Origin: Corynebacterium kalinowskii
GTDB lineage: Bacteria > Actinomycetota > Actinomycetes > Mycobacteriales > Mycobacteriaceae
Assembly (NCBI RefSeq): GCF_009734385.1
Contig: NZ_CP046452.1
Location: forward strand, 868,001-932,000
Direction: 5' to 3'
Length of the DNA: 64,000 nt
Under the pieces are notes generated by a model. That model was not told the origin of the DNA. It worked only from the letters and a program-made list of their open reading frames with translations, and did no database searches. The position numbers and the translations under genes are program-made. Below, in pieces: positions 39,491-53,021 of the stretch. Numbering within the stretch: the stretch's first letter is position 1; every line of letters starts with the position of its first letter.

Positions 39491-40444
39491 CTACATGTTG
39501 GAGACGATGACCTCTCCCTGGTGCCATTCCTTGTCCAGCTTTTCCTTCAGGCCTGGGTCGAGGGCTCCTGGGGTAACTACTTCGAGGTCAGCGTTGTACT
39601 GGACGCGCACCTTGGAGCCTTCTGGCACGAGGTTTGGCACGGCAAGGAGGTTGGCCAAATTCTCGATCTTGTCTTGCATGACGCCTGGGTCGCCGTGGAT
39701 AACGACGAACTTGCCGCCACATCCTTCTTGCTTGAGCAGCAGCTCGCGGTCCCCAAGCTTGAGCTTTTCGTCTTCAAATGCGCCGTGGAGGTAGCGCAGG
39801 TTGTCTACGCAAGTTTCGTTGGTGTGCTCGGTGAAGTCGGCCGCGATCAGCCACAAGGCGGTTAGGCGGGAGTACTCGTACTTGCCTTCCATGATTGGAA
39901 CGGTGCCCATGACCATGTCCCATTCCTTCTTCAGATCCAGCAGCTGACTCTCGTAGGAGACGGCTTCGGCGGTGGCAAGCACTGGCCCAACTTGGTCACC
40001 CACGTGTGTAGTAATGCCGTGGGTTTGCTGGGCATCAGCGGCTAGGGGTTGGACGGCGTCGAGAATGCGCTTGATTTCGTCGTCTGGCAGGGTATGCGGG
40101 ATTTTGACGGCGACGAGCTTGTCCATTCCCTTAGGGTCGGCGTTGACCCGCACCTCTGGGGTGACTACGCCGCGGAGTTGAGCGACGTACTCTTCGACGA
40201 AGCGGAAGTCGTCAGGGCCGGTGGCGAGTGCTCCGCCGGATCCGCCGAGTGCCTTCTCGAGGTCGGCAGCGCTGCCCTTGGATTCAGCCTTGGTAGTGGG
40301 CGTCGCGGACTCGGTTGCAGCCTCGGTTGCAGGCTGGGTGGCAGTTTCGGTGTCGGAACCGGCAGGTGAAGTTCCGGACAGTGGGTTATCGCAGCCAACG
40401 AGCAAGGCTGCGGCGACGATCAGGGCTGGGATGTGGAGTTTCAT
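39491..40444 (-). CDS. Secreted lipoprotein, tandem paralogue 4 of 4
   Basis: 317 residues. Signal peptide with lipobox LLVGC (Cys19), then a Ser/Thr/Glu/Ala-rich linker to about residue 65. The ectodomain shares DPKG-x5-V-x-I-P near its start, two cysteines (ETCVDNL and EGCGGKFVVI) and a C-terminal W-x2-G-x-V-x-V block (EWHQGEVIV) with the two genes upstream. Likely anchored outside the membrane. Function unknown. It is the last gene of a four-gene - strand run with gaps of 57-81 bases. Confidence 0.78.
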   Translation of the reverse strand: MKLHIPALIVAAALLVGCDNPLSGTSPAGSDTETATQPATEAATESATPTTKAESKGSAADLEKALGGSGGALATGPDDFRFVEEYVAQLRGVVTPEVRVNADPKGMDKLVAVKIPHTLPDDEIKRILDAVQPLAADAQQTHGITTHVGDQVGPVLATAEAVSYESQLLDLKKEWDMVMGTVPIMEGKYEYSRLTALWLIAADFTEHTNETCVDNLRYLHGAFEDEKLKLGDRELLLKQEGCGGKFVVIHGDPGVMQDKIENLANLLAVPNLVPEGSKVRVQYNADLEVVTPGALDPGLKEKLDKEWHQGEVIVSNM

Positions 40445-40501
40445 TGGAGATCCTTGTGTGTTGAGGGCGCACAGGGGCGCAATGAGGTGGGGAAATGGCG
40501 G

Positions 40502-41440
40502 CTATTTGGCTTGCTGGACGATGACAGCTCCAAGATCCCAGATCTTGCCGAGCTCGCCTTCGAGACTTGGATTTGGAGGGCCTGCGGTTTCGACGACCAG
40601 AGTGCCGTCATTTTCAACCACCACGACAGAGTCCACTGGGACGAGGTCTGGGGTTTGTACGACATTGGCGATGGTGTCCAGCTTCAGTTCGAACTTGCCT
40701 GGCTTGCCATAGATCACGACGTGTCGGTTGTCGCAGCCGGGAAAGCGCATAACCATGCCGAGGTCATTCACGCCCAGCTCATCTTCCTGGAAAGAGGAGT
40801 TGATCTTGCGGATCTTTTCGCCGCAGGTGTTCCTGTCATAGTTTTCAAAGGCTTGGAGAGCCGTGCCTTCAGGGCTGACAATGCCGAACTCAAAGTAGTC
40901 CTTCATTTTCGGGGCAGCGGCGTTAATGAGGTCCCACTGTTCGGTTAGCTTCATCACCGGCAGGAAAGGTGCGGTGGGCTGCGCAGCGATGGCGATATTG
41001 CCTTCAGTGCGTCGGCCTACTTCGGTGATGATGCCCTTGTTTTGGTAGGTCTGTTCCGCGATGGGCTGGATTTTCTCCAGGGATGCCTTCACGTCCTCGT
41101 CCGGGATAGACGTGGGAAAGTTGATCGTGACGGCCTTGCGCTCGCCCTTCGGGTCAACGTTGACGGTGGCGCCGTGGGGGACAAGTGGGATGAGGTCGCC
41201 GGCAAGGCGCTCAGCGAAGACGAACTTAATATCGTCTTTCGGTGGTGGGGCAATGGTGGTGCCGAATGTCAGGGTGGATGGTGGCGCCACGGTGGTGTTG
41301 GCTGCAGCTGACGGGTCCGCGTTGGTGGTTGTGGATTCTTTGTCCTTGCCTTGATACAGGACGAAGGCAAGTGTGCCCGCGATGATTACCGCGACGGCGA
41401 TGATTGCGGTGGTCACAATCATGCGACTCGAGTTATTCAT
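40502..41440 (-). CDS. Membrane-anchored extracellular protein, tandem paralogue 3 of 4
   Basis: 312 residues from ATG 41440, preceded by GAGGA; an in-frame TTG at 41452 is less likely. An N-terminal span (about 5-27, IVTTAIIAVAVIIAGTLAFVLY) is followed by a Thr/Ala linker and the shared ectodomain. That domain has VDPKGERKAVTINFP, cysteines in NTCGEKI and PGCDNRHVVI, and the end IWDLGAVIV. It is clearly homologous to the lipoprotein downstream and more weakly to the gene upstream. Anchored, not lipidated. Confidence 0.78.
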   Translation of the reverse strand: MNNSSRMIVTTAIIAVAVIIAGTLAFVLYQGKDKESTTTNADPSAAANTTVAPPSTLTFGTTIAPPPKDDIKFVFAERLAGDLIPLVPHGATVNVDPKGERKAVTINFPTSIPDEDVKASLEKIQPIAEQTYQNKGIITEVGRRTEGNIAIAAQPTAPFLPVMKLTEQWDLINAAAPKMKDYFEFGIVSPEGTALQAFENYDRNTCGEKIRKINSSFQEDELGVNDLGMVMRFPGCDNRHVVIYGKPGKFELKLDTIANVVQTPDLVPVDSVVVVENDGTLVVETAGPPNPSLEGELGKIWDLGAVIVQQAK

Positions 41441-41521
41441 TAGTCCTCGCAATGGGTTTGATTTTGCTAATTAAGCTACCAACACCGAGGAAGTTTGGCG
41501 CGCGGAATCTGGGAATTGTTT

Positions 41522-42340
41522 CTATTTACCCTGAATCCTCACTGCGCCGAATTCCCAGTTTTGGAAGGCATTCCGTTCAACGACGGGGTCGGTAGATGAA
41601 TTGGTGATGGTCAAATCACCGCTTTCATCCACTGTGATGCTCGTATCGGGGTGGAATGTTCCCGCGTCCTCTAGCGCAGCCTCTATTCGGGTGAGGCTTT
41701 CCGTCATAGGTCCGTCATGATCGTCAAAAGTGACCCGTGCGCGGTTGCAGTTGTAGAAATCAACATCATCGACCAGTGGTTGCTTGTCCTCGGGAAGGGC
41801 GCTCAATGTGGTGCGCAGCTCGCGCAAGAGGCTGGCGCAGGACTGGGCGTCGGGAAGCTCCTGGTCGTAGGTGACCGAGGTGCCGGAGTATCCGAGAGCT
41901 ACCCGCGAGAAGCCTTCGGGCAGGTTCTGGGTGGCAAATCTGGTTTTCTCGTAGCGCTTTTGCAAGCCGGGGTGATCGGGGCTCACGACGAGGGTGAAGT
42001 ATCCCCAGTTTGTATATCGAGTGAGATCAGCATTGCCATCATGTTGGGTGATGAGATCGTTGGTGATGGAGTCGAGGTCGGTGATCACTTCGGTAACGGC
42101 TTCGTCACTGGTGGTAGCAGGCACACTGATGTAGGCCCAGATGTCCCCGCCTTTGGGGGATTGACTCACCCTGACGTGTGCGCCATCCGGTAGGGCCTGC
42201 TCGTACCTTGCCTGGAAGCTCTGAGCCAATTCGGATTCTTCGAAAGACTTGCGGGCGACCTTGGCGTTGAAGAGCACAAGGCCGGCAATTAGCAGAACTA
42301 TGAGACCGAGCGGAACGAGCCAGGAGGGTGGCTTTTTCAT
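41522..42340 (-). CDS. Membrane-anchored extracellular protein, tandem paralogue 2 of 4
   Basis: 272 residues with an N-terminal span (about 8-26) directly after MKKPPSW and an extracellular domain. Shared family marks are SPKGGDIWAYISVP, cysteines in AQSCASLL and YNCNRARVTF, and the end NWEFGAVRI. Shorter linker than the two downstream genes. No enzyme motif recognised. Confidence 0.75.
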   Translation of the reverse strand: MKKPPSWLVPLGLIVLLIAGLVLFNAKVARKSFEESELAQSFQARYEQALPDGAHVRVSQSPKGGDIWAYISVPATTSDEAVTEVITDLDSITNDLITQHDGNADLTRYTNWGYFTLVVSPDHPGLQKRYEKTRFATQNLPEGFSRVALGYSGTSVTYDQELPDAQSCASLLRELRTTLSALPEDKQPLVDDVDFYNCNRARVTFDDHDGPMTESLTRIEAALEDAGTFHPDTSITVDESGDLTITNSSTDPVVERNAFQNWEFGAVRIQGK

Positions 42341-42400
42341 GAGACCCCATCGATGTCAGGAGTAGGCATAATTCCATAGTCGCACCTAATTGCGCATTTC

Positions 42401-43162
42401 TCAGTGCTTTGAAGGCAGGGTCACCCACACGTTGCCGTGTGGCCAACGCTCGCGGAGAGGCTCTGGGCTTATCGACGCCCCCGTCTCATCAATACGAATA
42501 GTGCCGTCTTCCATGTGGAGAGTTGCCTTGTAACCCGCGCCGAGTTCCGGGGAGCTGTCGATGAAGGCGGCAAGGTCGCCCAGTATGCCGGGACGGTCGG
42601 CGAAGACGATGGTCCAAGAATCGCTCACGAAAGTGGTGCGCAGGGGCGAGGAGAAGTTCTCCAATTCCGAGTTCAACGCTCTGACATCGTCCGAAGTGTC
42701 CAGGTTTGGGTGGGTGAGGATGGCGGAGCGGGACCTGGTGTGGAGGCTGATGTGGGTGATGTTCAGGGCGAAATAGGGGCCGGTGTCCGACCATGCGGAG
42801 GCTTTGGTGTCATTGATCGTCACCGTTTTGTAGTCGACGGTGGTGTTTAGGCGGAATTGGATTCCCCAGAAGCCATCTGGCTGTAGGTTGTCGGCCCAAT
42901 CGAGTACCTGGCTGACCTGCTCAAACGTCATGGATTCTGCGGAGGCGGTAACTTCCAGTATCGGCTGCACGCCACAGCCGGGGTTGAAGTCTTCGAGTTC
43001 GATATGGACGCTGTCTGGGGCGGAGTTCAGGACCGCAGCTTTAAGCGGAGGGAGTTTATCGGTCTGGTAGGGGCGGCAGGGATCGGCGATTTCCCAGATG
43101 GGCGGGAGGAGCGCGAGCAGGAGGACTGCTGCCAGGATGGCGAGCAAAATACGACGTTGCAT
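42401..43162 (-). CDS. Membrane-anchored extracellular protein, tandem paralogue 1 of 4 (divergent)
   Basis: 253 residues from ATG 43162 after GGGAGAACA, with one N-terminal hydrophobic segment (about 4-22) that may be an anchor or a signal peptide. The C-terminal block RWPHGNVWV matches the family. Both family cysteines are absent (the positions read SDDVRAL and SDSWTIVF); two others, in ADPC and PGCG near the N-terminus, could form a different disulfide. First gene of the run. Function unknown. Confidence 0.68.
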   Translation of the reverse strand: MQRRILLAILAAVLLLALLPPIWEIADPCRPYQTDKLPPLKAAVLNSAPDSVHIELEDFNPGCGVQPILEVTASAESMTFEQVSQVLDWADNLQPDGFWGIQFRLNTTVDYKTVTINDTKASAWSDTGPYFALNITHISLHTRSRSAILTHPNLDTSDDVRALNSELENFSSPLRTTFVSDSWTIVFADRPGILGDLAAFIDSSPELGAGYKATLHMEDGTIRIDETGASISPEPLRERWPHGNVWVTLPSKH

Positions 43163-43461
43163 TGTTCTCCCGCTTAAGAGTTATGGACTACCAGCAGTGG
43201 TGTGATGCGGCGGTAGTCAAAATTGTTTCCGGGGGTGCTTGTGAATACACCTCTTAGCAACATTTTCAAAGGCCGTGACTGTGGGGCATTTTCGTCATAT
43301 ACCCCCAGCATGGGGAGTGTTTAACTTGATTAATGGCCGTTAACTGAAATTTCATTCACGCTTTCCCGTCGCCTGGCCCCGTGCTACAACCAGTGCATGT
43401 GATTCACATCACCCACATGGGGGTCACGTATCACGAATTGATCCTTTGAGAAGGGAAGAGC
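43163..43461 (+). promoter_or_regulatory. Divergent promoter region upstream of the AAHS-type transporter
   Basis: 299 bases between the tandem paralogue run (- strand) and the MFS gene (+ strand), AT-rich in the middle. It holds the GlxR-like site at 43398-43413, and GAGAAGGGAAGAGC just before ATG 43462. No gene is supported. Confidence 0.55.
43398..43413 (+). promoter_or_regulatory. CRP/GlxR-like binding site
   Basis: TGTGATTCACATCACC fits the GlxR consensus TGTGA-N6-TCACA except at the last base(s). GlxR is the cAMP-responsive global regulator of corynebacteria and controls several aromatic-compound transporters. The site is 49 bases before the transporter start. Confidence 0.6.
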
Positions 43462-44799
43462 ATGACCGTTACCACCACCGCACCTTCACGTGCACACGAG
43501 ACAACTTCTGATTGGCGTTCGCCCAAGCACCGGCTTTCGGTTTACGGTGTTGTCGCCATTATGTTCACTGCCATGATCTTCGACGGTTATGACATCGTCG
43601 TTTATGGCGCTATCCTTCCGACGCTGCTTTCCGAGCCACACCACATTGGCCAGCTCAGCGCCGCCGTGGCCGGCAGTCTCGGTTCGTACACCATGATCGG
43701 CATCATGTTCGGTGCGCTGGGAGCAGGTGCGATTGGTGACCGCATTGGCCGCCGACGCATGATGCTGGTTGCTTTCGTGTGGTTCTCAGTGGGCATGGCT
43801 GCGGGCGCCTTTTCGACGTCCATTGCTATGTTCGGCGCTACGCGCTTCTTCACTGGCCTTGCCCTGGGTGTTATTACTGCCGGTGGTGGTGCCGTTATCG
43901 CGGAATTTGCTCCCGCTTCCCGCAAGAACATGTTCAATGCGATCGGCTACGCAGGTATTCCGGTAGGCGGCGTCGTCGCCTCGATGTTCGCGATCTGGTT
44001 CGAGGACATGATCGGCTGGCGCGGGCTCTTCTTGATCGGTGCCTCCCCAATTCTGTTCCTGTTCCCGATGGCACTGTTCATGCTTCCCGAGTCCCCGAAG
44101 TGGCTGACCGCCATGGGCCGTGGTGACCGCGCCCGCGCGATCTGTGAGAAGTTCGATTTCCCAGAGTCTCAGTTCACCTCAGAAAAAGTCGTGGTCACCG
44201 AGAGTGGTGAAAAGGAAAAGATTGGATTCGGCGCCATCTTCTCCCGCCAGTACGTGGTGTCCACGCTGCTGATTGGCGTCATGAGCTTCATGGCCATCAT
44301 GGCCGTGTACGGCCTGAACACCTGGCTGCCACAGATCATGAAGGAAGCAGGCGTTTCCGCCACCTCCGGCCTCTACACCCTGGTCGCCCTGAACTTCGGC
44401 GCGGCTGCTGGCGCGTTGGCTGCCTCCAAGGTTGCTGACGTGATCGGACCGAAGCCCGTCATCATCTTCACCTTCTCCGCCGCCGCGATCTGCATGTTCG
44501 CCATGCCATACCTGGCCTCACCGTGGCTCATGTTCCCAGCCATCGCCATTACGGGCATGGGTGTGACCGGCACCCAGATCCTGATCTACGGCATGACGTC
44601 CCACCACTACCCAACGAGGGCCCGCCAGGCAGGCATGTCCTGGTCCTCCGGCTTCGGCCGACTCGGCGGCATCGTTGGACCGATGCTCGGCGGTATCCTG
44701 ATCACCATGGGCCTCGGAGCTGCCGACGCCTTCATGTTCTTCGCCATCGCCACCGTCATCGGTGCTATCTGTACCGTATTGGTGCCGGTTCGGAAGTAG
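43462..44799 (+). CDS. MFS transporter of the aromatic acid:H+ symporter (AAHS) type
   Basis: 445 residues, twelve spans. FDGYDIVVYGAILPTLL in span 1 is the hallmark of AAHS permeases (DGxD motif), and GDRIGRRRMM is motif A in the first half. Relatives include BenK, PcaK and GenK, which import benzoate, protocatechuate or gentisate; I cannot choose between them. No aromatic degradation genes are in the window. The strong ribosome site and GlxR-like site suggest carbon-source control. A terminator follows. Confidence 0.88.
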   Translation: MTVTTTAPSRAHETTSDWRSPKHRLSVYGVVAIMFTAMIFDGYDIVVYGAILPTLLSEPHHIGQLSAAVAGSLGSYTMIGIMFGALGAGAIGDRIGRRRMMLVAFVWFSVGMAAGAFSTSIAMFGATRFFTGLALGVITAGGGAVIAEFAPASRKNMFNAIGYAGIPVGGVVASMFAIWFEDMIGWRGLFLIGASPILFLFPMALFMLPESPKWLTAMGRGDRARAICEKFDFPESQFTSEKVVVTESGEKEKIGFGAIFSRQYVVSTLLIGVMSFMAIMAVYGLNTWLPQIMKEAGVSATSGLYTLVALNFGAAAGALAASKVADVIGPKPVIIFTFSAAAICMFAMPYLASPWLMFPAIAITGMGVTGTQILIYGMTSHHYPTRARQAGMSWSSGFGRLGGIVGPMLGGILITMGLGAADAFMFFAIATVIGAICTVLVPVRK

Positions 44800-44812
44800 T
44801 TTCTGAAGCTCC

Positions 44813-44843
44813 AAAGCCCCTAGCCGTGCGCTGGGGGCTTTTG
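44813..44843. terminator. Terminator between the MFS gene and the convergent helicase gene
   Basis: AAAGCCCCTAGC (44813-44824) pairs with GCTGGGGGCTTT (44830-44841) with one wobble, loop CGTGC, followed by more T on the + strand and A-rich sequence on the other side. Confidence 0.8.
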
Positions 44844-44873
44844 CCTGCTTATCGACGCGCCGGAGTCAGGAAT

Positions 44874-47777
44874 TCACTTGCCCGTTAGGTTGGATGACGT
44901 CTCAAAATAGTTGAAAAGATCGGGCTCGACCTCGTGCTCCAGAATGAGATCCATATTGACGACGTTGAGCATTTCCCCTTTATTTCCCGGCATCGTGGTC
45001 TGCGCAGCATTCGTGGAAACTGCCTGGCCCAGGTAAAAGAAGTCAGTTCCTTCGGCGTCGTCTTTTTTAACGAAGACATGTATTTCGACTGAATTGGTAA
45101 CTATGTCTACGACTTCGTCTGAAGAAAGCGTGCGACGACTTCTAGTGAACCAATGAAGGGTGCGCGGGTCCTTAAACTTATCCCCGTAGCTGACGCTCGC
45201 ATCGACATTTTCGTCTTTATGGTAGGTAACGAAAATCGGACAGGAGGCGGTGGCCCGATCTCGTTTGTATCCGTAAATGGTGCTTTCGTTGTTACCTTGC
45301 CAATTAAGGAGACGGCACACATCTTTTCGAGAGTATCGCTCGCCCACGACCAGGCTTCCATTCCATGAATAACGGTGTCTGGCGAGGAACAAACCTGTTT
45401 CTATGATGTCGTCTACATGGGTGCGGAATTCCGAGGAGTTTGCGTAATCTTCTGCAAATTCCTTGTTGAGAGGGTTATTTTCTCCCTCAGAAATGACAAT
45501 CGGGTTTTCCCCAAACCGTTTCCTTTGGGCTCCTGTGATGAATTTGTAGCTAAGTACCCTCAAAGCAGATTCGACCACGGATTCATCGTCGCTTGTATCA
45601 AAATCAGACAAGGTATTACGCAAATCGCTTCTGCTTGAATCGTTTTCTACAAGTAGTCGCTTTAACACCAGCAACTCATGCGGTCTTTTGCCGTTGAGTA
45701 GTTCAGAGGATAGGAAATCCAAGAAATGCTTTTGACGAGGTGATGGCGTAGATTCAACAAACTTCAATGAGGAGAGCAGCGACCAGTAGTTGTGATAGCT
45801 ACTTCCGATGAGAACTGGATCTACTAAATCAAATCGTGCGAAGTCGATAAGTCTCGGTAACGTGCCATGCCTGTGCAGGTATGTAAGGATGTCAGTTTTG
45901 AATTGAAACTTCCCATTCAAGGTAGCCTTCGCTAGTGACATCAAAATTCGTGATTCGGCAATTTCATCGAAATTGACACTGGATACGCCGGAAATCGCTT
46001 TCCGGTCCCTGCCATCCGTGCCGATAATCTTCTTCCGAATGTTGTCTTTATTGCGTGAATTATCCCCAAATAAAGCGATCGGAATGAGGAAGTTATTTGA
46101 GTAATTTCCGATGAAATCGATTACGCGAAGATGATCTTTTCCTTCAAACTTTCTCAAGCCTCTGCCGAGCTGTTGGGTGAAAATAATGCTGGATTGAGTA
46201 GCGCGCAGCATGACGATCTGGTTCAAGCAGGGAATATCGATCCCCTCGTTGAAAATGTCAACAGTAATGATGTAGTCAAGCTCGCCATTCTCTAACAGAG
46301 CCACAGCCCGTTCTCGATCTTCGCGTGAATCGTCGCCAGTTAGGGCTAGCGTACGTAGCGGTTTTCCAAATACATTGGATTGATTGAACAATCGGGAGAG
46401 CTCGTGAGCTTCTTCCTTTCGGCTACAGAACATAAGTCCTCGGACATCTTGCGGGAGTCCATACATTTCGAGCTTTTCAATCACGAATCGCACTCGTTCA
46501 TCGCAGACGAGGAATGCGAGATTCGAGGTTTCGGTAATTGTGGTTGAGTTATTTACGGTGTAATCCGCGACTCCAAAGTAATGGAATGGCACCAGCATCT
46601 TTTCTTCAAGTGCACGTTGCAGTCTGATTTCGTAGGCAACGTTATAGTCGTACAACTCAAAGATATTGAACTTGTCTGTGCGCTCGGGAGTGGCAGTCAA
46701 ACCGAGCAAGAACTCGGGATCAAAATGATCGATGATTTTTCGAAAGGATTCTGCGGCGGAGTGGTGAGATTCGTCGATAATGATGTAGTCGAAATAATCT
46801 CGAGGTAGGGATTCAAGGACTGCTGGCTGTGTGAGCGTTTGAATAGTTGCGAAAACAAATCGTCTGTCGATTTCTCGTCGAGCCCCACTAAAGCGGCCAA
46901 ACTCACTGTCCGGAAGCTGAAAGACCTTTTGGAATTCCTCCAACGCCTTAGAAGCAATTTGTTCTCGGTGAACTACGAAGAGCAGTTTCTTCGGATTCGC
47001 TTCTTTGGCGGCCAGGGCTGCGAGAATAGTTTTTCCTGTGCCAGTTGCGGACACGATGATTGCTTTTCGAGCACCCAGTTCACACAGTTCTGCTAGGGAA
47101 TTCAATGCCTCCTTTTGCATGCTATTAGGCGTGATCGTGTCTTCAAGCGGCAGCACTTCGCCTGCGAAACTTGCCACAGATGGGCGTACTTGAGGTCGAC
47201 GCGTGGCCTCGTACTGCCGAATCCATGATTCAGTGAGCGGAACAGAAAAATCGAGCTGACGAGCAATCGCCGATTCGAGTTGAATTGCGATGTTTCCTGA
47301 TGTCTGTGTGGAGAACCGGAGATTCCATTCCTGGTTTGAAACCAAAGCTTGGTCAGTGAGATTTGAACTGCCCACTATCGCGGTGAGCATTGGGGACTTC
47401 TCAAAAACGTAACCCTTGGCATGGAAACCAACGTTCGGGTGTTGGTAAATATGCACGTCGATGTTCTTGAAGTTCAAAAGCTCACGAAACATTGACGGTT
47501 CATTGAAGTCCAAATATCGGGAAGTAATGATGGTTCCCCGGCCCTTGAACTTCAAAAATTCGTTTTTCAATAACGCAAGGCCACTAGGGGTGATGAAGGC
47601 TATCGAAAACTGGAAAGAATTGCAGGTCCGCAGTTCGTTGGTAATTGCGGCCAGCATCGTCCGTTCATCTTCAAAATTCGCAATCAAACGCGGATCATGA
47701 ATCTCAAGTGCAGGATGTGCGTTGTTAATGAATCCGAACTCAAGATCTGCACGGAAGCTCGTCGGCGAGCTGCTCAA
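44874..47777 (-). CDS. PLD-nuclease / SF2 helicase / DUF3427-like protein
   Basis: A 967-residue fusion. Residues about 30-180 form a phospholipase-D-like nuclease domain: H119-A-K121 and GSSN about 16 residues later, with Glu126 where HKD enzymes have Asp. An SF2 helicase core follows: Walker A SATGTGK249T, DEAH-type box D335-E-S-H338, TATPERTD at 361, and motif VI QQLGRGLRK. The last third matches the DUF3427 pattern (SRKDVCRLLNW...YGYKRD...TLHWFTRSRRT...FYLGQA). This architecture occurs in scattered bacteria and is associated with DNA repair or defence. The gene is AT-richer than its neighbours (28 of 60 G/C at 45841-45900 against 35 of 60 at 44461-44520), suggesting transfer. It starts three bases after the NUDIX gene. 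Confidence 0.9.
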   Translation of the reverse strand: MSSSPTSFRADLEFGFINNAHPALEIHDPRLIANFEDERTMLAAITNELRTCNSFQFSIAFITPSGLALLKNEFLKFKGRGTIITSRYLDFNEPSMFRELLNFKNIDVHIYQHPNVGFHAKGYVFEKSPMLTAIVGSSNLTDQALVSNQEWNLRFSTQTSGNIAIQLESAIARQLDFSVPLTESWIRQYEATRRPQVRPSVASFAGEVLPLEDTITPNSMQKEALNSLAELCELGARKAIIVSATGTGKTILAALAAKEANPKKLLFVVHREQIASKALEEFQKVFQLPDSEFGRFSGARREIDRRFVFATIQTLTQPAVLESLPRDYFDYIIIDESHHSAAESFRKIIDHFDPEFLLGLTATPERTDKFNIFELYDYNVAYEIRLQRALEEKMLVPFHYFGVADYTVNNSTTITETSNLAFLVCDERVRFVIEKLEMYGLPQDVRGLMFCSRKEEAHELSRLFNQSNVFGKPLRTLALTGDDSREDRERAVALLENGELDYIITVDIFNEGIDIPCLNQIVMLRATQSSIIFTQQLGRGLRKFEGKDHLRVIDFIGNYSNNFLIPIALFGDNSRNKDNIRKKIIGTDGRDRKAISGVSSVNFDEIAESRILMSLAKATLNGKFQFKTDILTYLHRHGTLPRLIDFARFDLVDPVLIGSSYHNYWSLLSSLKFVESTPSPRQKHFLDFLSSELLNGKRPHELLVLKRLLVENDSSRSDLRNTLSDFDTSDDESVVESALRVLSYKFITGAQRKRFGENPIVISEGENNPLNKEFAEDYANSSEFRTHVDDIIETGLFLARHRYSWNGSLVVGERYSRKDVCRLLNWQGNNESTIYGYKRDRATASCPIFVTYHKDENVDASVSYGDKFKDPRTLHWFTRSRRTLSSDEVVDIVTNSVEIHVFVKKDDAEGTDFFYLGQAVSTNAAQTTMPGNKGEMLNVVNMDLILEHEVEPDLFNYFETSSNLTGK

Positions 47778-47780
47778 TTC

Positions 47781-48173
47781 TTAATACTCCTTGGCGATGA
47801 GCTCTACGGCTGGAACATCTGCCGGAGCCCACTCTAATTCGAGCATTTCAGTGCCGGTCAGCCAACGGATTTCCGCGTGCTCGGTAAGAACAGGCTCGCC
47901 CTTCACAAGCGTGCAGTAATAGGTGGAAAGCACGATGATCGCGAAATCGTATTCGTGTTCGGTAGTTGTGATGTGGCTGCCCACTTCTGCATCACACAGC
48001 AGTTCTTCCTTAAGCTCGCGCGCCAGAGATTCTTCTGGAGTTTCACCTGGCTCGATCTTGCCTCCTGGAAACTCCCAGTAGCCAGCGAGAGACTTGCCCT
48101 CGCCACGGCGTGCGCACAAAACTTTGCCGTCACGAACGATGACAGCGCCAGTAACTTCGATTCGCTTTTTCAT
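47781..48173 (-). CDS. NUDIX (deoxy)nucleoside triphosphate pyrophosphohydrolase (MutT/NudG-like)
   Basis: 130 residues with an intact Nudix box G38-x5-E44-x7-R52-E53-L-K-E56-E57. FPGGKIEPGE and the N-terminal VTGAVIVRDGKVLCARRGEGKSLAGYWEF match the MutT/CTP-pyrophosphohydrolase group that cleaves unusual or damaged (d)NTPs to monophosphates. It is first in an operon with the helicase (three-base gap), so the two proteins probably work together, one on nucleotides and one on nucleic acid. Confidence 0.9.
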   Translation of the reverse strand: MKKRIEVTGAVIVRDGKVLCARRGEGKSLAGYWEFPGGKIEPGETPEESLARELKEELLCDAEVGSHITTTEHEYDFAIIVLSTYYCTLVKGEPVLTEHAEIRWLTGTEMLELEWAPADVPAVELIAKEY

Positions 48174-48227
48174 GTGCGCATCTCCTCCGCTCGATTGCTA
48201 ACTCCAACGACTTTAACACCGCCGGCT

Positions 48228-48491
48228 ATGCTGCGTGCCGTGACTGTATTCGAATGCAATTTCACGGTGCCGACTCAAGAAGACCTGGCCAATGGGTATT
48301 TCTTGGCGGACCATTTAGAGATGCTCAGCCTTGAGGAGCTTTCCTTCTTCCTAGAGTCAGTGGTTGGGGATCGAGCAGGCATTGTACGCAAATGGGCTGA
48401 GCTGGATGAGGAAGTGGTAGTCGTTGAGGACGAGTCAGGCATTGAAGTCCGAACCCCGCTTGGCCAATGGTTGCGGGTGCCGTGCAAGTAA
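48228..48491 (+). CDS. Small acidic protein of unknown function
   Basis: 87 residues from ATG 48228, or 83 from GTG 48240. It contains EDLANGYFLADHLEMLSLEELSFFLES and EEVVVVEDESGIEVRTPLGQWLRVP, so it is acidic with helix then strand character and no membrane span. It diverges from the NUDIX-helicase operon, with 54 bases between starts, and is followed by a terminator. I do not recognise it. No strong ribosome site is visible, so expression could be leaderless. Confidence 0.55.
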   Translation: MLRAVTVFECNFTVPTQEDLANGYFLADHLEMLSLEELSFFLESVVGDRAGIVRKWAELDEEVVVVEDESGIEVRTPLGQWLRVPCK

Positions 48492-48506
48492 CGGACAGTA
48501 ACTAAA

Positions 48507-48539
48507 AGCACCCGTGGAAATTACGTATCCACGGGTGCT
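48507..48539. terminator. Terminator between convergent genes
   Basis: AGCACCCGTGG (48507-48517) pairs perfectly with CCACGGGTGCT (48529-48539), 11-base loop, preceded by AAA; it can serve the small gene and the permease gene from opposite sides. Confidence 0.8.
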
Positions 48540-48568
48540 GAGGGGCTAGGAGCGTCGAAAAGCCTTGA

Positions 48569-49921
48569 TTAAGCCTCGGTGCGGGAGCGACGCACAAAGT
48601 ACAGCCCCGTCATCACCACGGTGAACACAATGCCGGCGATCAGTGCCATGTGGAAGTCTGGCTGCCATACCATGATGCCGAAGGTGAAGATGATGAACGC
48701 GATGGCGAAGTACTGTCCATAAGGCCAGAACGGTACTGGGAACTTCAGCTCGGCCGCCTGGGTGGCGGTCATGTGGCGTCGGGAAGCTACCTGCGCGAGG
48801 AGGATCATCAGCCAGACGAAGATCGTGGCAAAGGTGGCGAGCTCTGCGATCGTGGCAAAGATTGAATCCGGCATCAAGTAGTTCGCAACAACGCCAACAA
48901 TGAGGACGACCAGCAAACAGATGGTGGTCATGACTGGAACGCCGCGCTTAGTCACCCCCATGAACGCAGGGGCCTGGCCGGAGCGCGCCATGCCGGTGAT
49001 AACGCGGCCAGCGCCGAACAAGTCAGAGTTGATAGCGGACAGCGCAGCAGAGATAACCACGACGTTGAGCAGGGCAGCGGCCCAGTTCACGCCGAGGGTG
49101 CTGAAGATCTGGACGAATGGCGACTGCTCGCCGGTGATTGTGCGCCATGGGTTGATGGAGACAATGAAGAAGATCGCCAAGACGTAGAACAGCAGGATAC
49201 GAACCGGGACGGTGTTGACGGCCTTTGGGATGGTCTTTTCTGGATCTTCCGCTTCGGACGCGGTCACGCCGATAATTTCCGTGCCACCGAAGGCGAACAG
49301 GACCAGGATGAAGGCGGAAATCATTCCGGTTGGGCCATTAGGCATGAAGCCACCGTCGTTCCACAGGTTGTCGATGCCCACGTGCTGGTTGCCGTCGCCC
49401 AGGTTGAAGATCAGGATGGCGGCGCCACCGAGGATCATGGCAATAACGGCGGAGACCTTGATGATGGTCATGCCGAACTCAAGCTCGCCGAACCAGCGCG
49501 CAGACGCCAGGTTTGCCGCGCCGACGATCAGCAGCGTGATGGCCACCCACACCCACTGCGGCGTGTCCGGGAACCAAAATTTCATGTAAATGGCGATGGC
49601 GGTGAGGTCCGCGAGGCAGACGATGATCATCTCGAAGGCGTACATCCAGCCAGTGATGTAACCCGACCAGCCACCGAGGTGCTCGCGCACGTATTCGGCG
49701 AACGAGCCGGCGACAGGCATTTGAACTGCCATTTCACCCAGCGCGCGGAGCATGAAGTACACCACGGCGCCGCCGAGCAGGTAGACCAACAGCACGGATG
49801 GGCCGGCTGCTTGGATGGCGCCGGCCGAGCCGTAGAACAGGCCCGTGCCGATGGCCGAGCCCAACGCGATGAAGTGGATGTGGCGAGCTTTTAGCCCGGC
49901 ACCCTTGGCAATAGTGGACAT
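48569..49921 (-). CDS. Amino acid permease, AAT family (APC superfamily)
   Basis: 450 residues with twelve spans. The N-terminal ARHIHFIALGSAIGTGLFYGSAGAIQAAGPS is the AAT-family signature, and GEMAVQMPVAGSFAEYV is the conserved loop after span 2. Relatives import proline, GABA, histidine or aromatic amino acids (ProY, PheP, AroP types); specificity cannot be read from the sequence. It is monocistronic, ending at the shared terminator. putP, a proline symporter, lies about 4.5 kb away. Confidence 0.88.
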   Translation of the reverse strand: MSTIAKGAGLKARHIHFIALGSAIGTGLFYGSAGAIQAAGPSVLLVYLLGGAVVYFMLRALGEMAVQMPVAGSFAEYVREHLGGWSGYITGWMYAFEMIIVCLADLTAIAIYMKFWFPDTPQWVWVAITLLIVGAANLASARWFGELEFGMTIIKVSAVIAMILGGAAILIFNLGDGNQHVGIDNLWNDGGFMPNGPTGMISAFILVLFAFGGTEIIGVTASEAEDPEKTIPKAVNTVPVRILLFYVLAIFFIVSINPWRTITGEQSPFVQIFSTLGVNWAAALLNVVVISAALSAINSDLFGAGRVITGMARSGQAPAFMGVTKRGVPVMTTICLLVVLIVGVVANYLMPDSIFATIAELATFATIFVWLMILLAQVASRRHMTATQAAELKFPVPFWPYGQYFAIAFIIFTFGIMVWQPDFHMALIAGIVFTVVMTGLYFVRRSRTEA

Positions 49922-50027
49922 GGGGTTGCCTTGTCTCTGTCGGAAGTTTAAGTGTCAGACTAACTGTACATTTCTTCCGACCCTGCGCATAATATGCAAC
50001 TAGGAACGGGCGTCGAGAAGCGTGCTG

Positions 50028-50858
50028 TTATTGCGCCAGCTCAGGGTACTTGTCCATAACCTCGCGGAACTTAGAGTCATCGTCGCTTTGTCCCTCGAAC
50101 GCGGTCACGCTCAGCTCGCCGGTCGCGCCGTCGAAGTAGACCTCCTCAAACGTCTCAGGACCGTTGGTCTCGCCGTACACCGCAGCCAAATCCTTTGCGA
50201 GCTCAGCCTGTGGGCGGGAGATGTCAAAGATGACGTGCGCTTCCTTCTCTCCGCAAGACTTCGCTCCGATGTTGGCCGAGTACTCCTTATCTAGGGCGGG
50301 ATCCAGCTTGCCGATGGTCGCTGCCATGTCCTGAATGTTCTTCACACATTGATCCACTGGTACCTGCGCTGAAAGAGAAGAGATGTCATTTTCGATGGAA
50401 GAATCCTGACCCTTGAAGTGGTGCACGGTCTCCGGAAGATCCTTTAACTTCACGCTTTCCTTCGCAAACTTCTCCCACGGCCCGGCCAAATCGATTGCCG
50501 GATCGGTGAACAGAAACTCGGTGGAGGTGCCGTCGATGGTCACGTGGATTGCGGTCGGAGTGCTCGGATTCGCGCGGTATTCCTCCTGGTACTTCTTGAC
50601 CAGCTCGACAGACTCCGCGGCGGTCATTTCGACGCTCCAATCGTCCGGGTTCGCCCCGCCGATCAGTCGTACCAGCTGGCCGTCGAGGTACATTTCAGAA
50701 TCCTCAACCTTCGGCCCCTTGCCATCGCTTTTCGACGCCCTTGAATCCTTCATGTCAGATGTTTGAGGGGCGTTGCCTGATTCATTTGTGCCGGTACAGC
50801 CGGTCAGAAGCGTGGCGGCCACAACGGACGCAGCAAAGAAAGAAGTACTTTTTTTCAT
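50028..50858 (-). CDS. Secreted lipoprotein, distantly like the 39491-43162 family
   Basis: 276 residues with signal peptide and lipobox LLTGC (Cys21), then a Gly/Asn/Ser/Lys linker. The ectodomain contains PVDQCVKNIQDM and KSCGEKEAHVIFDI, the same C-x2-N-[I/L] ... C-G-x3-[H/V]-V-I pattern seen in the lipoprotein at 39491-40444. It lacks the C-terminal W-x2-G-x-V-x-V block. Function unknown. It diverges from the DEAD-box helicase gene. Confidence 0.75.
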   Translation of the reverse strand: MKKSTSFFAASVVAATLLTGCTGTNESGNAPQTSDMKDSRASKSDGKGPKVEDSEMYLDGQLVRLIGGANPDDWSVEMTAAESVELVKKYQEEYRANPSTPTAIHVTIDGTSTEFLFTDPAIDLAGPWEKFAKESVKLKDLPETVHHFKGQDSSIENDISSLSAQVPVDQCVKNIQDMAATIGKLDPALDKEYSANIGAKSCGEKEAHVIFDISRPQAELAKDLAAVYGETNGPETFEEVYFDGATGELSVTAFEGQSDDDSKFREVMDKYPELAQ

Positions 50859-50978
50859 AGTGTTTACTATAAATTTCCTTAATGAATCCAGCTATGAAAG
50901 TGCATGAATCGTTATCTTCCGAGACCAAAAAGTGGCGCGCTTCGCATTATTGGGGAAAGTGGCGTACGGTTGGGTGCG

Positions 50979-53021
50979 ATGAGTAACACCGATAACGTTG
51001 CCAGCGGCGTAGAAGAGCTGGAAAATGTCACAACGTCGGAAACTCAGGATACTTCGCAGGACGTCAATAATGACGTCAGGGATGCGAACACTTCTGAGGA
51101 CGACACCACGCAAGGTTTCGAAAACTTGGGGCTGCCTGCAGAAGTGCTGAAGGCCATCGCCAAGGTTGGCTATGAGACCCCATCCCCAATTCAGTCCGAG
51201 ACTATCCCAGTCTTAATGGAAGGCCGCGACGTCGTCGGCCTCGCGCAGACCGGTACCGGTAAGACTGCAGCTTTCGCGCTGCCAGTGCTTTCCCGCATCG
51301 ACAAGTCCGTGCGCGCACCACAAGCCCTCGTGCTTGCCCCAACCCGCGAGCTCGCGCTCCAGGTAGCAGACGCATTCCAAGAATTCGCCGATCACCTCGG
51401 TGGCATCAATGTGCTGCCGATCTACGGTGGCCAGGCCTACGGCATTCAGCTGTCCGGTCTGCGCCGTGGCGCTCAGATCGTCGTGGGTACCCCAGGTCGC
51501 GTCATCGACCACCTGAAGAAGGGCACCCTGGACATCTCCGGTCTGCGCTTCCTCGTCCTCGACGAAGCCGACGAGATGCTCAACATGGGCTTCCAAGAAG
51601 ACGTCGAAAGAATTCTGGAAGACACCCCTGAGGACAAGCAGGTTGCTCTGTTCTCCGCAACCATGCCAAACGGCATCCGCCGCCTGTCCAAGCAGTACCT
51701 GAACAACCCAGCCGAGATCACGGTCAAGTCCGAGACTCGCACCAACACCAACATCACGCAGCGATTCCTCAACGTCTCGCACCGCAACAAGCTCGACGCG
51801 CTGACCCGCATCCTCGAGGTCACCGAGTTCGAAGCAATGATCCTGTTCGTGCGCACCAAGCACGAGACCGAAGAAGTTGCAGAAAAGCTCCGCGCTCGCG
51901 GTTTCTCCGCAGCAGCCATCAACGGCGACATCGCCCAGGCTCAGCGTGAGCGCACCGTGGACCAGCTCAAGGATGGCCGCCTGGACATCCTCGTAGCTAC
52001 CGACGTCGCAGCTCGTGGCCTCGACGTGGAACGTATTACCCACGTCTTCAACTACGACATTCCTCATGACACCGAGTCCTACGTGCACCGCATCGGCCGT
52101 ACCGGCCGTGCAGGCCGCTCCGGCGAGGCAATCCTGTTCGTGACCCCTCGCGAGCGTCGCATGCTGCGCTCCATCGAGCGCGCCACCAACGCGACCCTCG
52201 TAGAGATGGAACTGCCGACTGTCGACGAGGTCAACGAGTCCCGCAAGTCCAAGTTCGCTGACTCCATTACCTCTTCTTTGGAAGATTCCCAGATCGCGCT
52301 GTTCCGCAGCCTGGTCAAGGAATACTCCGAGGAGCACGACGTGCCTCTCGAAGACATTGCTGCAGCCCTGGCTACCCAGGCGCAGGCTGGCAACGACTTC
52401 CTGCTCAAGGAGCTCCCACCAGAGCGTCGTGAGCGTCGCGAGCGCTTTGATCGTGATGACCGTGGCGGCGACCGCTTCGAGCGTCGTGACCGTTTCGATC
52501 GTGGTGACCGTGGAGATCGCGGCGATCGCGGTGCTCGCTTTGAGCGCAACGACGACATGGATGTCTACCGCCTTGCAGTGGGCAAGCGCCAGCACGTGCG
52601 CCCAGGTGCCATCGTGGGCGCTCTCGCCAACGAAGGTGGCCTGTCCTCCAAGGACTTCGGACGCATCACCATCTCTGTCGATCACACCCTGGTCGAGCTG
52701 CCAAAGAACATGCCAGCCTCCGTCCTGGAGCGTCTCGCAGACACCCGCATCTCTGGCCAGCTGATTCACATCGAAGCAGCCCCAGGCGCTGACATGGGTC
52801 CACGTGGCGGTTTCCGCGAGCGTGACTCCGATGGTCGACGCAGCCGTGATGATCGACGCGGATACCGTGGCGATCGCGACGACCGCGGTGGCGACCGTGG
52901 CGGCCGTGGTGGAGATCGCGGTGGCGACCGTGGTGGCCGTGGCGGCTACCGTGGTGGACGCGATCGTGATGACCGTGGTGGAGAACGTGGCGGTTTCCGC
53001 GGTGGATTCCGCGACCGCTAG
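50979..53021 (+). CDS. deaD: DEAD-box ATP-dependent RNA helicase (DeaD/CsdA type)
   Basis: 680 residues from ATG 50979. A short acidic N-terminus precedes the Q motif (FENLGLPAEVLKAIAKVGYETPSPIQ). The core has Walker A AQTGTGK95T, D195-E-A-D198, SAT and HRIGRTGRAGRSG. The DbpA-type RNA-binding domain (about 525-600: VYRLAVGKRQHVRPGAIVGALANEGGLS) comes next. The tail is Arg/Gly/Asp-rich with RGG and RGGDRGG repeats. Members unwind structured RNA during ribosome assembly and at low temperature. Tandem-looking DNA at about 52840-53000 is simply the repeat-coding tail. Confidence 0.95.
   Translation: MSNTDNVASGVEELENVTTSETQDTSQDVNNDVRDANTSEDDTTQGFENLGLPAEVLKAIAKVGYETPSPIQSETIPVLMEGRDVVGLAQTGTGKTAAFALPVLSRIDKSVRAPQALVLAPTRELALQVADAFQEFADHLGGINVLPIYGGQAYGIQLSGLRRGAQIVVGTPGRVIDHLKKGTLDISGLRFLVLDEADEMLNMGFQEDVERILEDTPEDKQVALFSATMPNGIRRLSKQYLNNPAEITVKSETRTNTNITQRFLNVSHRNKLDALTRILEVTEFEAMILFVRTKHETEEVAEKLRARGFSAAAINGDIAQAQRERTVDQLKDGRLDILVATDVAARGLDVERITHVFNYDIPHDTESYVHRIGRTGRAGRSGEAILFVTPRERRMLRSIERATNATLVEMELPTVDEVNESRKSKFADSITSSLEDSQIALFRSLVKEYSEEHDVPLEDIAAALATQAQAGNDFLLKELPPERRERRERFDRDDRGGDRFERRDRFDRGDRGDRGDRGARFERNDDMDVYRLAVGKRQHVRPGAIVGALANEGGLSSKDFGRITISVDHTLVELPKNMPASVLERLADTRISGQLIHIEAAPGADMGPRGGFRERDSDGRRSRDDRRGYRGDRDDRGGDRGGRGGDRGGDRGGRGGYRGGRDRDDRGGERGGFRGGFRDR

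Follow-up and report, generated by a model that had tools for sequence, protein, structure and literature searches.

A two-gene operon of Corynebacterium kalinowskii lies on the minus strand at positions 44874 to 48173 of a 64,000-nucleotide stretch of contig NZ_CP046452.1 (positions 868,001 to 932,000), referred to here as the window. The first gene (47781..48173, ATG start) encodes a Nudix hydrolase of 130 aa resembling NudG and MutT2 and labelled PDC-S07 by PADLOC, as judged from the list of open reading frames (ORFs), Pfam, PADLOC, alignment and fold. The second (44874..47777, TTG start) encodes a 967-aa protein that the ORF list, Pfam, PADLOC and a match to the SauUSI structure firmly assign to the SauUSI family of Type IV restriction enzymes, at full length. 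Shine-Dalgarno-like motifs are readable before both minus-strand genes, GGAGGAG (48182..48188) 8 nt before the ATG and AAGGAG (47787..47792) 9 nt before the TTG, within the end of the Nudix gene; this arrangement fits the TTG start and translational coupling. The original prediction, made from the sequence alone, had recognized an operon with a three-base gap, which indeed spans 47778-47780, and had proposed a transferable module for defence or repair whose Nudix enzyme removes modified nucleotides or a signal nucleotide. The mobile two-gene defence module is supported by the results below, and removal of modified nucleotides is the best supported of those guesses, whereas repair and signal removal found no support and the SauUSI Type IV family had been missed.

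Matches of the large protein exceed the Pfam cut-offs for PLDc_2 (33.2 bits), ResIII (137.1 bits), Helicase_C (47.5 bits) and DUF3427 (297.8 bits), confirming the proposed PLD/SF2/DUF3427 fusion beside a Nudix box, itself backed by a Pfam match. DUF3427 is matched in a C. glutamicum genome as well. The PADLOC model mREase_IV (727.7 bits, residues 7-958) and the SauUSI crystal structure 7clg (713 bits, residues 6-958) match it from end to end. 7clg is also the top fold match of its predicted structure (E 3.3e-67; mean predicted local distance difference test score 77.5, moderate), aligning over the whole length with a template modelling score of 0.58 and 36% identity. The available text on SauUSI (PMC7913695) describes a PLD nuclease with H119/K121, an SF2 motor, a coupler and an SRA domain with a modelled 5-methylcytosine (m5C) pocket of Y831, F841, I842, D858 and W868, and with M829 inserting into DNA. 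The same four domains can be placed on the window protein: a PLD nuclease domain (about aa 1-191, 47205..47777, minus strand as for the others; boundary from the alignment to SauUSI) with H119 and K121; an SF2 helicase-like ATPase/translocase (about aa 215-611, 45945..47135; Pfam and SauUSI alignment) with K249, DESH 335-338 and R542; a helical coupler (about aa 612-812, 45342..45944; Pfam, SauUSI alignment and predicted structure), the later part of which falls within DUF3427; and an SRA-like target recognition domain (about aa 813-967, 44877..45341; SauUSI alignment and fold) with the putative pocket residues Y837, F849, V850, D866 and W876. The PLD motif HxK(x)4E (H119, K121, E126) and the SF2 motifs GTGKT (246-250), DESH, TATPER (361-366) and QQLGRGLRK (535-543) are all present, and the residues named earlier (HxK 119/121, Walker A Lys249, DESH 335-338, and Glu56/Glu57 of the Nudix protein) were correct.

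In an alignment of 35 rows to the 953-aa staphylococcal SauUSI, one row being a second copy of the window protein, H119, K121, K255, T256, R544, F841 and D858 (SauUSI numbering) are identical throughout, Y831 is kept in 34 rows and W868 in 32, and position 842 is V or I. E126 is kept in only 15 of the 35, the window protein included, and M829 is variable. Catalytic and m5C-pocket residues are thus shared with SauUSI, although Met829 is replaced by Tyr and Ser142 by Asp in the window protein; a homologue from C. epidermidicanis is 70% identical to it. By analogy, the enzyme would cleave DNA as SauUSI does. That the pair is instead a DNA repair module, with a RadD/XPB-like helicase and nuclease acting on damaged DNA and the Nudix enzyme cleaning up damaged nucleotides, is scarcely credible. 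The motor domain does resemble RadD and XPB, and RadD is the second-best fold family for the model (E 6e-15), but the RadD and XPB models score far below cut-off (93.5 bits against 720, and 45.9 against 610), which led to rejection of a repair helicase identity and leaves the earlier DNA-damage alternative unsupported; the match to SauUSI is full length and includes the SRA domain, and the distribution described below is patchy, with high turnover.

The Nudix protein matches NUDIX (PF00293) above the Pfam cut-off with 67.8 bits and PADLOC PDC-S07 (PDLC04899) with 184.4 bits, covering residues 1-128 of 130 on model positions 3-130 of 135; because both proteins are matched at full length with such scores, neither match is due to chance. 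All 58 of the 58 rows linked to restriction keep the Nudix box (G38, E44, R52, E53, E56, E57) intact. In fold comparison, the predicted structure of the window's Nudix protein comes nearest to MutT2 with bound 5-methyl-dCTP, and the protein shares the Nudix box and whole fold with NudG/Orf135 and mycobacterial MutT2, the CTP/5-methyl-dCTP pyrophosphohydrolases, with 35-38% identity; its tie to a restriction gene sets it apart from them. Glu34 and Asp119 match NudG Glu33 and Asp118, which we take to be important for substrate. It is not filed as NudG itself, since it falls short of the equivalog cut-off (PRK10546, 110.9 bits against 156). Together these comparisons suggest a NudG/MutT2-like enzyme that may act on C5-modified dCTP. 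Profile, alignment and fold comparison all place it in the nucleoside triphosphate pyrophosphohydrolase type, which argues against control by a nucleotide signal (ADP-ribose, NAD-like or a cyclic product) that the Nudix enzyme would degrade, switching the restriction enzyme on or off. Nudix domains do occur in NAD/ADP-ribose conflict systems, according to the available part of PMC7159879, but no recurring signal-making gene stands beside the pair in the loci read, although no search was aimed at one, and this explanation is very improbable.

The PADLOC label, which presumably stands for "phage defence candidate", carries no mechanism, and its model is unspecific. In a control, NudG itself scored 145 bits and nine of nine other relatives tried, all without a restriction partner, 119-156 bits; PDC-S07 thus defines no restriction-linked group. 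The idea that the Nudix genes form one dedicated PDC-S07 clade was dropped on this control and on the Nudix tree, which covers 54 of 63 such genes in Corynebacterium. Some PDC-S07 hits of defence scans may therefore be house-keeping enzymes. These data speak for general house-cleaning, in which an ordinary MutT/NudG-like enzyme directed against damaged nucleotides would be merely co-transferred, or would ease damage-linked stress during restriction. The MutT, RppH and MutT2 fold matches lie within a few Z units of one another, and the mutt model scores 89.7 bits. A phylum-wide Nudix search at 1e-20 likewise returned mostly house-keeping relatives, with a SauUSI-type gene in only 3 of 29 neighbourhoods and, in the other 26, no restriction gene of a 12-protein panel within 5 kb.

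Viewed from the restriction gene, however, the linkage to Nudix is near-obligate and extends across phyla, in different gene orders, which house-cleaning does not lead one to expect. Among 121 Corynebacterium genomes, 28 have a SauUSI-type gene that is intact and of full length (>640 bits), and 24 have a PLD-helicase of a second, shorter-matching family (203-283 bits to the same profile, PDLC03658), one of which, in genome G006, is counted though in two abutting pieces; the single second-family member scanned with PDLC03659 scores 859.7 bits. A Nudix gene lies upstream on the same strand in all 28 of the former (14-188 bp from the profile match) and all 24 of the latter (356-1,736 bp from a match that starts inside the gene). 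In three of the four second-family loci inspected, the Nudix gene adjoins or overlaps the helicase gene or is within 45 bp of it, and in two more an interval of about 530-550 bp is left. Of the remaining 69 genomes, 11 have a Nudix gene of this kind; one of the 11 is G096, in which the SauUSI-type gene is fragmented (best piece 310 bits). Co-occurrence thus extends well beyond one strain, and beyond the genus. In staphylococci, a Nudix gene is likewise directly upstream of SauUSI, and all six named Bacillota loci (Staphylococcus schweitzeri, S. simiae, S. petrasii, S. croceilyticus, Psychrobacillus and Lysinibacillus) have one upstream on the same strand. In 296 Actinomycetota genomes, the window's gene aside, a Nudix gene accompanies three of three SauUSI-type genes, in a tail-to-tail arrangement in two cases. 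In a plasmid collection (21 records with a Nudix match; 10 examined via the Nudix match and 5 via the helicase match), five of six records with SauUSI-type matches have it, including one from Hymenobacter (Bacteroidota) and a plasmid-labelled S. aureus record with the SauUSI-type gene in pieces (L180); Fusobacterium is the one without. Among records labelled as phage, part of which may be bacterial DNA, six of nine with the helicase have the Nudix gene within 1.2 kb of the matched part, in four cases on the downstream rather than the upstream side. Over 19 genomes, the distances between SauUSI proteins correlate with those between Nudix proteins (0.70; 0.61 with the distance of a nearby DEAD-box RNA helicase removed, permutation p 0.0002).

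Association with modified cytosine is not confined to SauUSI. NudG-like Nudix genes also have C5-methyltransferase restriction-modification (R-M), EVE-HNH and MrcB-like genes as neighbours, and fusions with McrA-type HNH nucleases occur. Among relatives of the modification-dependent endonucleases McrA-type HNH and EVE-HNH (VcaM4I), a NudG-like Nudix is present next to the enzyme or as a domain fused to it. These endonucleases have nuclease and reader domains unrelated to those of SauUSI and lack a motor, and their Nudix partners are placed apart on the Nudix tree; these associations apparently arose by repeated recruitment. A second, unrelated dCTPase-like family is present in some of the same loci. 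Such repeated association and fusion with modified-cytosine enzymes, and the presence of another dCTPase-like family, speak against general house-cleaning, which we consider unlikely.

Some of these loci have additional features. A MazG-like gene lies near the Nudix gene at three SauUSI or MrcB_N loci (L274, L275, L277), followed in L274 by a Schlafen-group-3 helicase with GIY-YIG and in L277 by a DUF2075 gene; these gene sets are perhaps a larger module. In genome G118 (L072:6087-7640), an ORF for an MFS transporter of 517 aa contains the Nudix match in its 3′ portion, possibly a transporter-Nudix fusion or an artefact of a single long frame.

A DEAD-box RNA helicase gene has the operon 2.7 kb upstream of it in the window; in Corynebacterium, this position is a turnover hotspot occupied by alternative Type IV, C5-methyltransferase R-M, MZA-like and EVE-like systems. 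The Nudix gene is at most 20 kb upstream of the DEAD-box gene in 46 of 63 genomes and on another contig in 7; by partner class, this holds for 18 of 28 SauUSI-type, 20 of 24 second-family and 8 of 11 other cases. C5-methyltransferases are found upstream of the DEAD-box gene within 26 kb in 28 of 49 genomes, and within 20 kb in 25. A separate hotspot inventory had no DEAD match in 9 of 80 regions, and the counts given here rest on the other two scans. A DEAD-box tree with 75 genomes, taken from 80 retrieved regions among the 121 genomes, requires no fewer than 24 changes of the Type IV state. The pair, present in 28 + 24 of 121 genomes, is not common to all relatives by vertical descent. Type IV and C5-methyltransferase genes tend toward mutual exclusion: the latter are found in 7 of 52 Type IV genomes against 42 of the 69 without Type IV (one-sided Fisher test, p 7.6e-8, with no correction for relatedness). 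Over 18 independent pairs on the DEAD-box tree, a mean of 9.8 differ in opposite directions, 2.0 in the same direction and 6.2 not at all (median p 0.039, range 0.013-0.18), evidence that is suggestive of exclusion but not strong. In G096 (L073), the Nudix gene survives separately near the DEAD-box gene, apart from the broken SauUSI-type gene.

We put at about an even chance the reading that the two genes form a Type IV restriction operon in which the SauUSI-like enzyme shreds C5-modified DNA while the Nudix enzyme hydrolyses C5-modified dCTP, sparing the host false marks in its own DNA. The SRA domain would flip out 5-methyl- or 5-hydroxymethylcytosine, the SF2 motor would translocate, and a dimeric PLD nuclease would shred the DNA. 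Because no C5-cytosine methyltransferase was detected in the window's genome (no PF00145 gene at E 1e-20), m5C would be read there as foreign. As for the substrate, its source and the self-protective purpose, we infer that the Nudix enzyme would hydrolyse 5-methyl-dCTP, and perhaps 5-hydroxymethyl-dCTP, to the monophosphate; that the modified dCTP may come from modified phage DNA broken down and rephosphorylated, or from phage synthesis; and that its removal would prevent the mark from being incorporated into host DNA by the polymerase. Host DNA made from a modified pool would look foreign, turning the restriction enzyme on its own host, which may be why the Nudix gene goes with readers of the mark. 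In the C5-methyltransferase R-M counterpart, stray marks would instead shield invading DNA from the endonuclease.

The same substrate would serve an attack on the phage, in which the Nudix enzyme destroys the phage pool of 5-methyl- or 5-hydroxymethyl-dCTP, so that phages are starved or undisguised and those still modified are cut. The occurrence of NudG-like Nudix genes beside many kinds of defence, and alone in four Corynebacterium genomes, would suit such a weapon. Nevertheless, a free-standing weapon would not need a partner that reads modifications, yet the pairing is near-obligate (52 of 52), and removing the modification would deprive the restriction enzyme of its target; we regard this alternative as fairly unlikely. 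Self-protection by removal of modified dCTP has its own difficulties: the second family lacks a Nudix gene in 15 of 15 loci outside Corynebacterium (three on contigs <9 kb) and has none annotated in the four loci examined in the plasmid collection, and the exclusion between Type IV and C5-methyltransferase genes may partly be competition for one site, all of which weighs against it.

A broader proposal, plausible but somewhat short of an even chance, is that NudG-like Nudix enzymes have repeatedly been recruited as the nucleotide-pool arm of modified-cytosine restriction, so that the m5C self/non-self code cannot be forged, whether m5C signifies foreign (SauUSI, McrA-type HNH, EVE-HNH, MrcB-like) or self (C5-methyltransferase R-M). 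The Corynebacterium hotspot upstream of the DEAD-box RNA helicase would then often hold a killer or a writer of m5C, with close species flipping the meaning of the mark. As a barrier to gene transfer, SauUSI has been studied well, and the window enzyme is a further member of a known family in which pairing with Nudix is usual. In Streptococcus, small proteins adjoining SauUSI homologs are MutT pyrophosphohydrolase homologs according to a figure legend (PMC7641849), and the available portion of an S. suis survey reports co-localisation of PDC-S07 and RM type IV in all 23 cases (PMC12813430). Neither "nudix" nor "mutT" is matched in the available text of the 2021 SauUSI paper (PMC7913695), and no printed explanation of the pairing was found in the literature searched, which covered few subscription papers. 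What makes the pair interesting is that NudG-like Nudix enzymes and modified-cytosine systems are linked time and again, the Nudix gene of the SauUSI operon being without an explained role in searchable literature. Should the enzyme prove to be a modified-dCTP pyrophosphohydrolase, restriction systems reading cytosine marks would come with a built-in protection against forged ones, a principle that is general and open to direct test. Part of the PDC-S07 category of defence scans would thereby gain a mechanism, and the finding would suggest a route by which a lineage could swap between writing and killing m5C.

The operon is flanked by a convergent MFS transporter gene (43462-44799, plus strand) and an amino-acid permease gene (48569-49921, minus strand), both identified from the ORF list and Pfam and in agreement with the neighbours predicted earlier. 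Its GC content, 0.470 for the SauUSI-type gene and 0.537 for the Nudix gene, is lower than that of the window (0.585) and of the two flanking genes (0.600 each), as had also been noted. Promoter and terminator scans gave no more matches than in shuffled sequence. A hairpin, AAAGCCCC...GGGGCTTT, readable between the convergent genes (44813..44841, in the direction 44841-44813), is a possible shared terminator; it is not among the terminator scan results, because its loop exceeds the limit of the scan. A tRNA-borne island was ruled out, no tRNA being present within the window, as was an RNA element, since nothing in 43000-51000 reaches an Rfam gathering score. A 204-aa ORF on the plus strand (47877-48491) is mostly antisense to the Nudix gene, its end extending upstream of that gene, and may be a small divergent gene or a chance frame; at a comparable place, the nearest relative carries an ORF of 117 aa (L079:8077-8430). 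Four tandem minus-strand ORFs of 317, 316, 272 and 253 aa (39491-43162) resemble paralogous lipoprotein/membrane proteins by eye, and a 276-aa lipoprotein beside the DEAD-box gene (50028-50858, minus strand) may belong with them.

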